53,995 nucleotides of DNA. Origin: Bifidobacterium breve. GTDB taxonomy: Bacteria > Myxococcota_A > UBA796 > SXON01. Position 1 is the stretch's first letter; each line of letters begins with the position of its first letter. The stretch covers positions 1 to 53,995 of the forward strand of contig CALQBK020000009.1 of assembly GCA_943328795.2 (NCBI GenBank). The letters are read 5' to 3'. The notes below the pieces were generated by a model, which had not been told where the DNA came from, did no database searches, and saw only the letters and a list, made by a program, of their open reading frames with translations. This document shows, piece after piece, positions 6,785 through 13,746 of the stretch. The translations under genes were made by a program, and so were the position numbers.

Positions 6785-9070
6785 CTACGGATCCAGCAGG
6801 ATCTCCGCAAGACGATCGCCCGCGGACGCCCGGGGCGGAGGCGCCGGGCCCGCCGCCACGTCGATCGGTGGACCCCCGGCGTCGGGGAGGTCGACGTGGA
6901 GATCGTGCCCGTCTGTCGAGACGAGCACGGTGCCATCGCGGTCGGTGCGGTACACCTGCCGGCCGCGCAGGTGAGCGAGGGTCTCGGCGTTCGGGTGGTG
7001 AAAGCGGTTCTCCTCTCCGCACGAGATCACCGCAACCGAGGGGTTCACCGCGGTGACGAACGGCCACGAGGAGCTGGTTCGGCTCCCGTGGTGCGGGACC
7101 TTCAGCACGTCGGCGTGCAGCTCGGCGGCGTGGTGGGCGAGCAGCTCGGCCTCGGCCTCCCGCTCGATGTCGCCGGTGAACAGGAAGCGCCGCGCGCCGA
7201 AGTCGAGGCGGACCACGAGGCTCTCGTCGTTGACCGGGTCCCGCGCGGGGCTCGTCCAACCGGCGAGGGGGTGGAGGACCCGCGCCGGGCCCCCGACCTG
7301 GGCGAAGCGCACGACGGGCGCCAGCGCGAGCAGCCGGGCGAACGCGAGCTCGCTCTCGCCGCCCGCGGGCCGTGGGGCGCGGGGCACGTCCAGCTCGTCG
7401 ACGTCGAGCTCTCGCAAGAGTGCCTCCAGCCCGCCGTAGTGGTCGGGGTGGGGGTGGCTGAGCACGACGCGGTCGAGGTGCCGCACGCCTTGCCGGCGCA
7501 GGACGTCGAGCATCGCCGTGGGCGAAGGGCCCGTGTCGATCGCCCAGACGCGGCCGTCGGGGAAGTCGACCAGCGCGGCGTCCCCTTGCCCGATGGCGAG
7601 GAACTGTACGACGAGGCGCCCGTCGGCGGGCGGGTACGGCCACCGCAGCGCCAGGGCGGCGGCCAGGAGCCCCGCGACCACCAGCGGGCGCCGGGGGTTG
7701 AGCGCCGCGAGCGCGAGCAGGACCGCGCCGGTCGCGCTCACAGCGGGGTGCCACGGCTCGACGTCGAGCGGCCGCAGGACCTGGAGCGCCACGTCCGCGG
7801 CGGTGTCCGCTACGGTCAGCACAAGGTCCGACAGGGTCGGCGCCGCCTCGGCGAGCGCGAAGCCCGCCACCGCGCAGGGGGTCGCGCACCCGCCAAGCAG
7901 TGGGCCGACGAGCAGGTTCGTCACGGCCGTCAGCGGCGAGAGCGCCTGGAAGTGCAGCGCCACGACGGGGAGCGTGCCCAGCGTGGCGCCAAGCGTCCCG
8001 CCGAGGCCTGTAGCGAGCGCGCGCACGAGGCGAGGGGCGTCCAGCGGGACCCAGCGCGTCACGCGGGTGGACCACGCCAAGATGCCTGCGACCGCTCCGA
8101 AGGAGAGCTGGAAGCCGAGGTTGTCGACCGCGGTGGGGTCGAGCAGCAGGGTCGCGCAGAGCGCGACGGAGAGGGCTTCCCAGCGCCCCGGGTGCACCCC
8201 CGCCGCCCGGCAGGCCGCGCCGGTCGCGACCATCGCGGTGGCCCGGAGCGCGGAGGGGGGCACCCCGGCCGACCAGGTGAAGACCCCGGCCGCCGCGATC
8301 GCCCCAATCGCGCAGACCCAGCCGCCGCCGCCCCGCCGCCGGATCCACGGAAAGGGCCAAGACACGAGCCGGACCACCCACCAGGCCGCCGCCGCCACCA
8401 ACGCGACCTGCATCCCCGAGACCGCGACGAGGTGCCACGTCCCCGTGCGCTGCAGGAGCCGCTTCTCGTCGGCCGGCACCTCCGCAGGCCGGCCCGCCAT
8501 CGCCGCGAGCAGCCCCCCGTGGACGAGGCGCGACGCCGGGGAACGCCCCGGGTCCGGGCCCTCCACCACGGCGTCCTTCGCGACCAGCACGGCCTCGACG
8601 TGGGCGCGCGCGTGCGCCCACCGGCCCGTCGGCTCCCCCGGCGGCGCGTGGCGGGGGAACCGGTGGCTCGAGCCGCCTGCTACGAAGCTCGTTCCAGGGC
8701 GAGGCGCCGCCCCCGGAAAGCGGACCCGCAGTCTGCCCGCGGCCGCGCTCCAAGGGCCCCCGTCCCGCGCGGTGGCGCTCACCAGCACGTCGGCCTCCGA
8801 CCCGATCGCGGGGCCGACCACCGTGCCGCGCACGCGGTCGGGGAGCCCGGGCAGCGCCGGGTCGATCCGCGCCGCGAACGAGAGCCCGAGGCACACCCCC
8901 GCCGCGAGCAAGGCGGCCGGTGCCGTCCGCCGGGCAGCCAATGCGAGCAGCAGGGCCGCCGCCGCGGCCAACGTGAGCCAGGTCGCTGGGGTCGCGCACA
9001 CCGGGGCTACCCAGACCCCCGCGAGCACGCCCAACGCGACAAAAGGGGTGGGTGACGAACGTCCGCTCAT
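6785..9070 (-). CDS. comEC: ComEC/Rec2 DNA-uptake channel protein
   Basis: The 761-residue inner-membrane protein moves single-stranded DNA into the cytoplasm in natural transformation. Order of parts: short N-terminal hydrophobic helices, a soluble OB-like region near residues 75-130, a long multi-helix competence domain with the conserved LVAVSGMQVALVAA segment, and a C-terminal metallo-beta-lactamase-like domain with SHPHPDHYGG, FTGDIE, KVPHHGSRTSSS and FHHPNAE. It is full length for the family and its metal ligands are intact. ATG 9070 is preferred over a TTG at 9115, because the extension is Arg-rich and overlaps a sigma-54-like promoter. Divergent from the FHA/sigma-54 activator. Confidence 0.9.
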   Translation of the reverse strand: MSGRSSPTPFVALGVLAGVWVAPVCATPATWLTLAAAAALLLALAARRTAPAALLAAGVCLGLSFAARIDPALPGLPDRVRGTVVGPAIGSEADVLVSATARDGGPWSAAAGRLRVRFPGAAPRPGTSFVAGGSSHRFPRHAPPGEPTGRWAHARAHVEAVLVAKDAVVEGPDPGRSPASRLVHGGLLAAMAGRPAEVPADEKRLLQRTGTWHLVAVSGMQVALVAAAAWWVVRLVSWPFPWIRRRGGGGWVCAIGAIAAAGVFTWSAGVPPSALRATAMVATGAACRAAGVHPGRWEALSVALCATLLLDPTAVDNLGFQLSFGAVAGILAWSTRVTRWVPLDAPRLVRALATGLGGTLGATLGTLPVVALHFQALSPLTAVTNLLVGPLLGGCATPCAVAGFALAEAAPTLSDLVLTVADTAADVALQVLRPLDVEPWHPAVSATGAVLLALAALNPRRPLVVAGLLAAALALRWPYPPADGRLVVQFLAIGQGDAALVDFPDGRVWAIDTGPSPTAMLDVLRRQGVRHLDRVVLSHPHPDHYGGLEALLRELDVDELDVPRAPRPAGGESELAFARLLALAPVVRFAQVGGPARVLHPLAGWTSPARDPVNDESLVVRLDFGARRFLFTGDIEREAEAELLAHHAAELHADVLKVPHHGSRTSSSWPFVTAVNPSVAVISCGEENRFHHPNAETLAHLRGRQVYRTDRDGTVLVSTDGHDLHVDLPDAGGPPIDVAAGPAPPPRASAGDRLAEILLDP

Positions 9071-9084
9071 GGCGCGGCCGGTGA

Positions 9085-9099
9085 GCAAGCCGCGTGCCA
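9085..9099 (-). promoter_or_regulatory. Candidate sigma-54 (-24/-12) promoter of comEC
   Basis: Read on the minus strand the sequence is TTGGCACGCGGCTTGCTC, matching the sigma-54 consensus TGGCAC-N5-TTGC at all ten key positions. The -12 element ends at 9085 and the predicted transcription start falls near 9074, only a few bases before the comEC ATG at 9070. The leader would therefore be almost absent, which is unusual. The divergent neighbour encodes a sigma-54 activator. I see no activator-binding site. If comEC actually starts at TTG 9115, this match lies inside the coding sequence and may be chance. Confidence 0.5.
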
Positions 9100-9177
9100 A
9101 GCGGGGCGCACACAAAGTGGCGAGGTGTGCCGGGCGTCGGCATTGGCGCCCCGGGTGCTGTATGCTTGCCGCCCCTC

Positions 9178-10538: not shown

Positions 10539-11237
10539 GTGCTTGATGTGACGACACTGGTGAGCCTCGCGGCCGGGTCCCTGATGACAGGGATCTCCGG
10601 TTGGTTCAGCGTCCGCGCGTTCCAGGACGCCAAGCTGCTCGCGGAGATCGGCTCCACGCCGATGGCGGAGCTCACGGACGGGCTGCACGAAGTGCGCGGC
10701 ACGGTGCACGGCGCGTCGGGCTTCAAGGCCCCGATCTCGCAGCGCGCGTGCCTCGGCTGGCGCCTGTTGGTCGAGCAGCAGCGCCGGTCCACCTGGGAGG
10801 TCGTGTACGACACCCGGGAGATGGTGTCGTTCGGCCTCGGGGACGGCACGGGCGACGTGCAGGTGGACGCTGGGAAGGCCGAGCTCGTGCTCGCCCGGTC
10901 TACACGCGTCGGCAACGGCGTCATCAGCGTGCCGAGCCCGGAGTGGGACGCGCTCAAGGCGCGCCTCGGGGACCCGGCGATCGAGCCCACCACCCCGTTC
11001 TTGCGGTGGAAGGAAGAGACGATTGAGCCCGAGGACGTGATCACCGCGATCGGCAACTTTGCCCGCGAGGGCGAAGCCTGGGTGGTCAGCCCCGAGAACT
11101 TGCTGCTCTCGGACCGCGACGACGCCGAGGTCGTGCGCCAGCAGCGCCGCCGCGGGCAGCGCCACGCGATGTGGGCGCTGGCCGGCGTCGCGGTGCTCAC
11201 CTACGGCGTGTGGTCGCTCGTCGGCGCCAGCACGTAA
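10539..11237 (+). CDS. GIDE-domain (E3-ligase-like family) membrane protein
   Basis: The 232-residue protein has an N-terminal helix (LVSLAAGSLMTGISGWFSV), a soluble middle and a C-terminal membrane helix (MWALAGVAVLTYGVWSLVG). The middle has the GIDE pattern: GSTPMAELTDGLHEVRGTV, then FKAPISQRACLGWRLLVEQ, then FGLGDGTGDVQVDAGKAEL. GIDE domains flank two membrane helices in mitochondrial MUL1/MULAN and occur in bacterial proteins of unknown function; no RING finger is present. The GTG start sits 2 bases after the sigma-54 activator stop, so the two are very likely co-transcribed. The role is unknown. Confidence 0.7.
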   Translation: MLDVTTLVSLAAGSLMTGISGWFSVRAFQDAKLLAEIGSTPMAELTDGLHEVRGTVHGASGFKAPISQRACLGWRLLVEQQRRSTWEVVYDTREMVSFGLGDGTGDVQVDAGKAELVLARSTRVGNGVISVPSPEWDALKARLGDPAIEPTTPFLRWKEETIEPEDVITAIGNFAREGEAWVVSPENLLLSDRDDAEVVRQQRRRGQRHAMWALAGVAVLTYGVWSLVGAST

Positions 11238-11274: not shown

Positions 11275-12477
11275 TTAGAAGCTCCGCGCGAACAGCCCCT
11301 CGATCGCTGCGCGCCCGCTGTCGGACAGGTACCGCGTGCCCGTCCCGCAGATCGCAGTCGCGTCGAGCACGGGTACGCCCTCCACCCAGTCCTCGCCGTT
11401 CCACCGGAACCACGTGTCCTTGTCCTGGTCGAACACCCACAAGCGCTTGCTCCACATCCGCGCGAGCTCGACGCTCCAGCCGGTGCCGCCCGTGACGGTG
11501 CCATCCTCCTGGATCGCGCCGATCACGTAGACCACCTGCGCGTTGCTGACCTGGTGCCACAGGCTCTGCAGCACGCGCCGGATCTGCGACCCCTCGGCGT
11601 AGTCGCGCCGCAACCGCCGGGACACGTAGGCGAGCGAGACATCGCCGGCCTGCAGCTCTTGCTCGGTGAGCGGGTTCGCGCCGCGGGTGCGGGCCTGGAC
11701 GTGGCCGGTGAACGTGTAGTTCACCTCGCGGGCGCCGTGGCGCTCGGCGGCCTCCCCGAACGCCGCCTCGGCCCCGGCGAGCCCCCCCGAGTACAGGGTG
11801 ACCTCCGCCGCGGACGTCGGCTTTTGGTTCGTAGCGTCCACCGAGCGCGCGGTGAACGTGGCGGCGTCCAGGCGCATCGGCGGCGGCACCACGCCCCCGC
11901 GCAGGCGCCGCGTCAGCAGCATCACGTGCGAGCGCTCGGGCACGAGCTCCAGCACGACATCGCCGACGGTCTCGTCCACGACGGGCGTCCCGGCGCACCA
12001 CACGGCGAGCCCCCGGGTCTTTGCGAGCTCGCTCAGCACGGCGAAGCCGGCCTCGTCGGGCTCCCAGCCGTCGACGACGACGAGCACCGGGCGAAACTCG
12101 ACGACGTCGGCGAGCTGGTCGAGCACCCGTTGCACACGGACGGCGTCGGGCATCACCCCGCGCGTGGCGTGAATGATGCGGTGTCGTTCGATGAATAGCC
12201 GGGCTTCGCCGCGCTCAGCGGGCCGGAGCGGCCGACCGAGCCCGTCGAGCAAGGACTCGTAGCCGTCGCGCACCTGCTCGCTGCTGCCCGTGCCGGCGAT
12301 GTGCAGCACCGCCTCGCCGCGGAGCAGTCGGTCCAGCGCAAATTGGAGGACCAACGCGGTCTTGCCAGAGCCCGCGCTCGCGCGGACTACGCCGACTTCG
12401 CCGGGCCGTAGCCCTCCCCCGAGCGCCTGGAGCAAGGGGCGGAGCGGACCACGGTCGGACAGGTCGGAGAGAGACAT
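11275..12477 (-). CDS. RecA/KaiC-like P-loop ATPase fused to a SLOG (DprA/LOG-like) domain
   Basis: The 400-residue protein has two parts. Residues 1-200 form a KaiC/RadA-like ATPase: ALGGGLRPGEVGVVRASAGSGKTA (split here as the GGGLRPGE lead-in, Walker A at 33-41) and Walker B VLVVVDGW at 131-138. Residues 225-400 look like a SLOG Rossmann domain: LYSGGLAGAEAAFGEAAE (229 on), a middle with QIRRVLQSLWHQVSNAQVVY, then GTVTGGTGWSVELA (GGTGW at 330-334) and WVFDQDKDTWFRW, ending GTGTRYLSDSGRAAIEGLF. SLOG domains bind nucleotide-derived ligands; DprA uses one to load RecA. I infer the domain from motifs. It is divergent from serA. Confidence 0.62.
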   Translation of the reverse strand: MSLSDLSDRGPLRPLLQALGGGLRPGEVGVVRASAGSGKTALVLQFALDRLLRGEAVLHIAGTGSSEQVRDGYESLLDGLGRPLRPAERGEARLFIERHRIIHATRGVMPDAVRVQRVLDQLADVVEFRPVLVVVDGWEPDEAGFAVLSELAKTRGLAVWCAGTPVVDETVGDVVLELVPERSHVMLLTRRLRGGVVPPPMRLDAATFTARSVDATNQKPTSAAEVTLYSGGLAGAEAAFGEAAERHGAREVNYTFTGHVQARTRGANPLTEQELQAGDVSLAYVSRRLRRDYAEGSQIRRVLQSLWHQVSNAQVVYVIGAIQEDGTVTGGTGWSVELARMWSKRLWVFDQDKDTWFRWNGEDWVEGVPVLDATAICGTGTRYLSDSGRAAIEGLFARSF

Positions 12478-12543
12478 GCGGCCTTATATCCGCGGGCCCC
12501 GGCCTGACGAGGAGGTGGCTTATACTCCCCTGCTGGAGACCCC

Positions 12544-13746
12544 ATGCGCATACTCGTCGCCGACAAGCTCGCCCCGTTCGTCCCTGGCCGCCTTCAAGAC
12601 CTCGGAGCCATCGTCACGGTAGACGCGAAGGCCGAGGGCGAGAGCTTGAGCGCGCGGATCATGGAGGTAGACCCGGACATCGTGATCGTGCGATCCACGA
12701 AGGTGGAGGCCGCGCAGGTCGAGGCCGGCGGGTCGCTCGCGCTCGTCATCCGCGCGGGCGCGGGGGTGAACACCATCGACCTCGGAACTTGCTCAAAACG
12801 CGGTGTATACGTCGCGAACTGCCCGGGAAAGAACGCCGCTGCGGTCGCCGAGCTCACCATCGGGCACATGGTCAACCTGGACCGGCGCATCGCGGACAAC
12901 GTCGCGTCGCTGCGCGCGCACCAGTGGGACAAGAAGCGCTTCGGGGTCGCGCGGGGGCTGCGGGGGCGCACGCTCGCGCTCCTGGGGTGTGGCCAGATCG
13001 GCAAAGAGGTGATCCGGCGGGCACAGGCGTTCGACATGAACATCGTCGCGTGGGGGCGGAGCCTCTCGGACGCGGACGCCGCCGCGCTCGGCGTCACGAA
13101 GGCCGCGTCGCCGGAGGCCGCCGTGCGCGATGCCGACGTCGTAAGCGTCCACGTCGCGCTGGCGAAGGAGACCCGCGGACGCATCGGTGAGTCGGTGTTC
13201 GCCGCGATGAAGCCCGGGGCGTACTTCTTGAACACCTCGCGCGCGGAGGTCGTGGACAACGACGCGCTGCTGCGCGCGGTGAACGAAAAGCAGATCCGGT
13301 GCGGGTTGGACGTGTTCCCCGACGAGCCGTCCGCTGGCCAAGCGAGCTACCAACACGCGCTGGCCGACCACCCGAACGTCTACGGCACACACCACGTCGG
13401 GGCGTCGACCGACGAGGCGGAGGAGGCCGTCGGGTACGAGGTGCTGCGCATCGTCCAGGCCTACCGCGACGGGTCCACGATCCCCAACTGCGTGAACCTG
13501 GCGACGCGTACGCCCGCGGACCACCAGCTCGTGGTGCGCCATGCGGACCGGGTTGGCGTGCTAGCGCGCGTGTTCGGCACGCTCCGCGAGGCGGACATCA
13601 ACATCGAGGACATGCAGAACATCGTGTTCTCCGGCGGTCACGCCGCGTGCGCGCGCATCGGCATCGTCGGGTCGCTCACGGCAGACGCCCTGTCGAAGCT
13701 CGAGGCCGACCCCGACATCTTCTCGGTCTCGCAGATCGGGATCTGA
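12544..13746 (+). CDS. serA: D-3-phosphoglycerate dehydrogenase with C-terminal ACT domain
   Basis: The 400-residue protein oxidises 3-phosphoglycerate with NAD in the first step of serine synthesis. It has the substrate-side segment RAGAGVNTIDL, the NAD-binding GCGQIG (148-153), NTSRAEVVDN with the catalytic-region residues, GLDVFPDEPS, and the GTHHVGAST histidine loop. A C-terminal ACT domain follows (about residues 320-400, HADRVGVLARVFGTLREADI), the usual serine-sensing site. A ggag stretch lies 5-8 bases before the ATG, and TTATACT upstream is a possible -10 box. Another 2-hydroxyacid specificity is possible but less likely given the ACT domain. It would supply serine for the beta-synthase at 3.8-5.2 kb. 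Confidence 0.88.
   Translation: MRILVADKLAPFVPGRLQDLGAIVTVDAKAEGESLSARIMEVDPDIVIVRSTKVEAAQVEAGGSLALVIRAGAGVNTIDLGTCSKRGVYVANCPGKNAAAVAELTIGHMVNLDRRIADNVASLRAHQWDKKRFGVARGLRGRTLALLGCGQIGKEVIRRAQAFDMNIVAWGRSLSDADAAALGVTKAASPEAAVRDADVVSVHVALAKETRGRIGESVFAAMKPGAYFLNTSRAEVVDNDALLRAVNEKQIRCGLDVFPDEPSAGQASYQHALADHPNVYGTHHVGASTDEAEEAVGYEVLRIVQAYRDGSTIPNCVNLATRTPADHQLVVRHADRVGVLARVFGTLREADINIEDMQNIVFSGGHAACARIGIVGSLTADALSKLEADPDIFSVSQIGI

Follow-up and report, generated by a model that had tools for sequence, protein, structure and literature searches.

The translation-associated ATPases eEF3 and ABC-F have the ABC fold and aid the ribosome beside a translocation GTPase. For spdEFG1, an EF-G paralogue, a three-residue KDG insertion in switch I is the defining feature (PMC3150367), and mitochondrial EF-G1 derives from this type (PMC4342817). 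Known or predicted roles of SLOG proteins are the sensing or processing of nucleotides, also within conflict systems (PMC6459960, PMC7824862), and the LOG phosphoribohydrolases carry a PGGxGTxxE motif with a catalytic Glu (PMC4979012).

The gene analyzed here lies in a stretch of 53,995 nucleotides, called the window throughout. It encodes an ATPase of RecA/KaiC fold joined to a SLOG-like domain, and in relatives outside the window's genus the ATPase gene lies directly behind spdEFG1. The likeness to eEF3 and ABC-F is a possible functional analogy only, as ribosome-assisting ATPases; the folds differ (ABC versus RecA) and no homology is claimed. As far as can be told, and assuming that the link is functional, an EF-G partner of RecA/KaiC fold is no described kind of system. 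We found no description of the ATPase/SLOG/EF-G combination in the open-licence literature, an earlier mention elsewhere being possible, and the available parts of the two EF-G paralogue studies (PMC3150367, PMC4342817) make no mention of the ATPase partner. Pfam and NCBIfam contain no curated model specific to either domain family. An earlier note on this DNA had recognized no described system with this architecture, and we likewise know of no description.

Domains of the fusion protein

The gene is a 400-aa open reading frame with an ATG start on the minus strand of the window; the plus strand of the same stretch contains stops. Its features are as follows.

11275-12477, minus strand: ATPase-SLOG fusion, whole gene, 400 aa; open frame with full-length conservation in the order
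11833-12477, minus strand: RecA/KaiC-type ATPase domain, N-terminal, residues 1-215; orthologue of the stand-alone ATPase behind spdEFG1 elsewhere
12358-12381, minus strand: Walker A, ASAGSGKT, residues 33-40 (A33-T40); glycines in 106 and Lys in 105 of 106 ATPase domains
12067-12090, minus strand: Walker B, VLVVVDG, residues 130-137, acid D136; D or E in 105 of 106 domains
11278-11832, minus strand: SLOG-like domain, C-terminal, residues 216-400; from a model, fold and profile matches and stand-alone homologs
11782-11796, minus strand: LYSGG loop, residues 228-232 (YSGG, 229-232); from the alignment of homologs
11467-11490, minus strand: GGTGWSVE, residues 330-337 (GGTGW, 330-334); invariant in 34 of 34 fusions and 37 of 37 SLOG sequences
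11425-11436, minus strand: VFDQ strand, residues 348-351; from the alignment of homologs
11332-11346, minus strand: GTGTR, residues 378-382; from the alignment, with G(I/V)GTR in phage relatives

The earlier note, which named no strand, had read the N-terminal half as an ATPase with Walker A and Walker B, and had placed YSGG, GGTGW and VFDQ in a SLOG-like C-terminal half. Both Walker motifs are present and near-invariant among the 106 homologous domains, and all three C-terminal motifs are present, their core residues being the same in each of 34 full-length homologs. Conservation is higher in the C-terminal half, as 27 of the 32 invariant columns in the 34 sequences lie after residue 220. A whole-chain AF2 model based on 34 homologs had a pLDDT of 87 and a pTM of 0.58, with each half confident and the joint (residues 212-217) poor. 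Pfam and NCBIfam scans of the single protein gave KaiC/AAA matches below threshold and nothing useful for the C-terminal half, and neither half passed a cut-off of either database. Judged by the models and fold matches, the reading of the chain as RecA/KaiC-like plus SLOG-like was supported, the SLOG call being remote and passing no curated cut-off.

A Foldseek search with the whole-chain model matched the N-terminal half to KaiC, RAD51C and RadA, each with a probability of 1.00. The family resembles these proteins in the fold of this half and in having Walker A and Walker B: across the 106 homologous domains the Walker A glycines are found in 106 and its Lys in 105, the Walker B acid (D or E) in 105, and a Trp (W160 in the window protein) in all 106. 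Unlike in the KaiC, RadA and RAD51C proteins, the column of the catalytic Glu, which in RecA/KaiC follows the strand after Walker A, is unconserved, with E in at most 25 of the 106 domains and Gly in the window protein. The family also differs in passing no Pfam or NCBIfam cut-off (the curated KaiC, RadA and RadB families score 13-25 bits versus cut-offs of 249-408) and in having EF-G as its genomic partner rather than clock or recombination genes. Near-invariant Walker A and B motifs combined with an unconserved catalytic Glu suggest an ATP-binding switch in which hydrolysis is weak or externally triggered.

Most of the whole-chain Foldseek list consisted of KaiC double-domain alignments of high rmsd, and the SLOG domain was therefore given a model and a search of its own. 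The resulting model was confident (pLDDT 92.6, pTM 0.89), and its best PDB match was 3IMK, a putative molybdenum carrier (probability 1.00, E 7.5e-3, TM 0.52/0.60) that we take to be a cpYpsA-type SLOG protein, an outcome that fits the SLOG-like call. PHROG 768, named 'DprA-like', was matched by 37 of 37 SLOG sequences, with an E value of 1.5e-8 for the C-terminal half. The Pfam family YAcAr ('YspA, cpYpsA-related SLOG family') gave weak matches to 15 of the 37 members (best E 0.003), and Pfam DprA gave no match at E values up to 1. The window clade appears to share a Rossmann-type fold and glycine-rich loops with the YspA/cpYpsA-related and PHROG 768 proteins, but it is distinct, well conserved, marked by an invariant GGTGWxxE and remote to every curated family. 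DprA belongs to the same broad SLOG superfamily, whereas the domain studied here lacks a Pfam DprA match and a competence context.

With the LOG phosphoribohydrolases the clade shares the GGxGxxxE spacing of the nucleotide loop and a Glu at the catalytic place. E337 of GGTGWxxE falls at the LOG catalytic-Glu spacing and is invariant in 37 of 37 SLOG sequences. Unlike the LOG enzymes, the clade is without the Pro and Thr of the motif, and inspection by eye identified no invariant Arg, the second LOG catalytic residue, in the helix ahead of the loop. LOG-type catalysis, which the fit of E337 had raised, was therefore not adopted. As these other LOG features are missing and two phage relatives have Gln in place of the Glu, ligand binding is favored over LOG-type catalysis.

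Linkage of the ATPase to spdEFG1

An all-against-all comparison of 38 loci from the window's order returned, besides the fusion itself and antisense ORFs, a single strongly recurring family, an EF-G of about 700 aa. In 34 of these 38 loci EF-G immediately preceded the fusion gene in the same orientation, and all four exceptions came from the window's genus. The fusion set of 54 loci (L059-L112), many of them from the same genomes, had EF-G directly upstream in 48; three of the other six are from the window's genus, and in the remaining three the contig start is too close or falls inside the gene.

The EF-G of locus L021 matched human mitochondrial EF-G1 best among PDB entries (810 bits versus 680 for E. 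coli EF-G, the next best), a comparison of similarity only. We found the KDG insertion in 75 EF-G copies, while the other readable copies carried one-residue variants (KDD, KDE, KDN or KEG) or, in two cases, a shifted KDG. On this sequence evidence, the EF-G beside the ATPase in relatives is identified as spdEFG1, the mitochondrial type. Spirochaetota and Planctomycetota are the other known holders of spdEFG1.

The two halves of the fusion differ in their association with EF-G. ATPase-only loci from other Myxococcota were directly behind EF-G in 20 of 20 cases, whereas EF-G was nearby in 0 of 20 SLOG-only loci, and stand-alone SLOG neighbourhoods had no conserved partner. From this difference we conclude that the tie to EF-G belongs to the ATPase, which the SLOG domain joined.

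The association extends to other phyla. Among 148 Thermodesulfobacteriota genomes, 39 have a high-scoring spdEFG1 (981 bits or more; G356 is one further genome, with 842 bits). The ATPase was found in precisely these 39 genomes and directly follows spdEFG1 on the same strand in every one of them. Fisher's exact test gave p 1e-36 for this co-occurrence, with the 148 genomes not being independent of one another. Where upstream DNA was present, the ATPase was behind EF-G in 10 of 10 loci from Fibrobacterota and 10 of 10 from Acidobacteriota. When each genome is counted once, EF-G is immediately upstream on the same strand in 114 of 114 informative loci outside the window's genus, i.e. 34 from the order, 20 ATPase-only, 39 from Thermodesulfobacteriota, that of genome G264, and the two sets of 10. 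The gaps between the two genes are often 0-30 bp, with several 4-bp overlaps. Across the phyla compared, the EF-G/ATPase pair has no further sense-strand neighbour family that recurs at comparable frequency.

The ATPase was missing from 62 of 142 spdEFG1-bearing Myxococcota (about 44%), a count that is perhaps somewhat high because the phylum survey scored at most 7 candidates per genome. Direct reading of the stretch behind EF-G in 20 of these ATPase-less genomes (L234-L253) revealed no ATPase, with one contig ending within 0.3 kb. These counts indicate that spdEFG1 does not depend on the ATPase.

One genome of the Thermodesulfobacteriota (G409, L200:3887-7577) has a separate SLOG gene immediately ahead of spdEFG1 and the ATPase. 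This arrangement was not counted as a three-gene operon, since SLOG and spdEFG1 are about 270 bp apart and the gap contains a terminator-like hairpin.

Distribution of the fusion and the locus in the window's genus

The fusion gene was matched in 52 of 58 genomes from the same genus, family and order, mostly at full length and in single copy, down to about 40% identity, and a profile run against 71 genomes from the class agreed with this. The gene belongs to the single-copy core of the window's order. The window protein is 83-91% identical to those of genus members and 55-66% identical to those of family members behind EF-G; plasmids yielded no match to the gene. Environmental metagenome bins, with the titles proteobacterium, Deltaproteobacteria, Myxococcales or Myxococcota, are the source of the closest relatives. 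Five records with close relatives (L063, L064, L065, L091 and L099) are titled 'Klebsiella pneumoniae' and look like mislabelled metagenome bins.

Our survey of the Myxococcota found the fusion, or contig-cut pieces of it, in 49 of 237 genomes and the ATPase half alone in 33, 18 of which have the SLOG half elsewhere. ATPase and SLOG are separate genes in other Myxococcota families, and as they are separate elsewhere and fused here, this is a Rosetta Stone case. Profile searches with the ATPase were positive in 39 of 148 Thermodesulfobacteriota, 13 of 149 Acidobacteriota and 34 of 81 Fibrobacterota, with phylum names taken from record titles and taxonomy. Fusions fall in three places of the ATPase tree, for which the fewest changes are 3, and one single origin of the fusion may be compatible with that tree. 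Within Thermodesulfobacteriota, SLOG occurs in 18 of the 39 genomes with spdEFG1 and the ATPase versus 15 of the 109 others (p 8e-5); it is also present in genomes without spdEFG1.

In the window itself, the fusion gene has the following neighbours.

6785-9115, minus strand: comEC; a merely positional neighbour outside the module, which 1 of 122 relative loci also has near the gene
10539-11237, plus strand: gene whose product has a Pfam GIDE match (E3 ubiquitin ligase-type domain) that passes the cut-off, with E 4.2e-6
12544-13746, plus strand: serA-like gene (3-phosphoglycerate dehydrogenase type), divergent; a neighbour only within the window's genus

The earlier note had drawn attention to comEC, 2.2 kb away with a sigma-54 activator in between. 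The positions are as it described, and the GIDE-like gene also lies in between, separating the activator from the fusion gene. When the genes of the window were compared with the 122 relative loci, comEC was near the fusion in only one and the sigma-54 activator in four, so that the suggested link to DNA uptake finds no support in the survey. For DNA uptake, this is the outcome that the earlier note had itself named as speaking against its reading. The one locus with comEC belongs to G004, the closest sister genome, whose fusion protein is 91% identical. The ATPase-SLOG/serA pair (11275-13746 in the window; L041:7767-10327 in G004) is inverted as a unit between the two, with the same flanking genes.

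The window's own fusion gene is not downstream of spdEFG1. Its genome has spdEFG1 on contig C65, 68% identical to the L021 copy, and the stretch behind that gene (L183:7266-8078) contains short repeated units and no ATPase-like ORF. The members of the window's genus have thus kept both genes, but with the fusion gene no longer at the spdEFG1 locus. The window protein is assigned to the spdEFG1-linked ATPase family by orthology.

Proposed role and alternatives

We propose that the fusion protein is probably a translation-elongation accessory factor and a companion of spdEFG1. The N-terminal domain would be an ATP-binding switch, probably oligomeric, that assists, holds or gates translocation together with spdEFG1 or with the ribosome on which spdEFG1 works. 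The fused SLOG-like domain would bind, and possibly process, a nucleotide-type ligand and pass the ligand state to the ATPase, such that elongation could respond to nucleotide or energy status. The linkage of the genes is observed directly; contact with EF-G or the ribosome, oligomerization, the type of ligand and the way in which translocation is affected are inferred. More generally, and more tentatively, many spdEFG1 bacteria may carry a dedicated, co-transcribed ATP-binding companion of RecA/KaiC fold, fused to SLOG in some lineages, which would provide ATP- and nucleotide-responsive control of translocation and constitute a new class of translation factor. If true, elongation, a very well-studied process, would gain a new component in this ATPase, kept as an operon partner in four phyla. 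It raises the question of why spdEFG1 so often travels with an ATP-binding partner while canonical EF-G does not, and the fused SLOG domain gives a tangible lead to the signal that the ATPase would read.

Two genes may stay together in an operon for the sake of co-expression alone, and gene order by itself cannot prove function. The ATPase might accordingly profit from the strong growth-linked expression of spdEFG1 while working elsewhere, e.g. in a RadA-like DNA role or as a metabolic sensor. Its KaiC, RadA and RAD51C fold, the 62 Myxococcota with spdEFG1 and no ATPase, and the separation of the two genes in the window's genus are all consistent with such a passenger. We nevertheless regard this explanation as unlikely, as the pair is kept in four phyla in which no other sense-strand neighbour recurs, and as the ATPase tracks spdEFG1 exactly in 148 genomes rather than the canonical EF-G that all of them have or could use. 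It is quite unlikely that the SLOG domain works as a LOG-type phosphoribohydrolase on a nucleotide set free near the ribosome and is regulated by the ATPase; the LOG-like spacing of GGTGWxxE and the invariance of E337 argue for such an enzyme, and the absent Pro and Thr, the lack of an identified Arg and the Gln of the phage relatives argue against it.

Two further readings go back to the earlier note. SLOG proteins as sensors or processors of nucleotides, also in conflict systems (PMC6459960, PMC7824862), and an invariant GGTGWxxE that fits a nucleotide pocket would agree with a translation-independent signalling or stress/defence system, in which the SLOG domain makes or senses ADP-ribose or a nucleotide signal and the ATPase is the effector. 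This is improbable for a single-copy core gene of a whole order that has no plasmid match, no PADLOC match of substance and no conserved defence neighbours, and whose ATPase half is tied to EF-G; the context is that of translation. A single-chain loader of imported DNA, composed of a RecA engine and a DprA-like domain and linked to comEC, has in its favor that RecA-superfamily and SLOG-type folds occur in one chain and that comEC is close by in the window and in G004. We consider it highly improbable, since the recurring partner is EF-G and not comEC, structure and Pfam favor a YspA/cpYpsA-type SLOG over DprA, and the 'DprA-like' label stems from a phage family named by remote similarity.

The two phage relatives of the SLOG domain are located inside giant phage genes (L254:1501-1914 and L255:601-1008). 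One of these genes is a 13-kb CDS of a crAss-like phage, annotated 'DprA-like' and containing in-frame TAG codons, and the other, of 11.5 kb, encodes the virion RNA polymerase of Klebsiella phage Pylas. In each relative, Gln takes the place of the Glu that is invariant in the bacterial clade.
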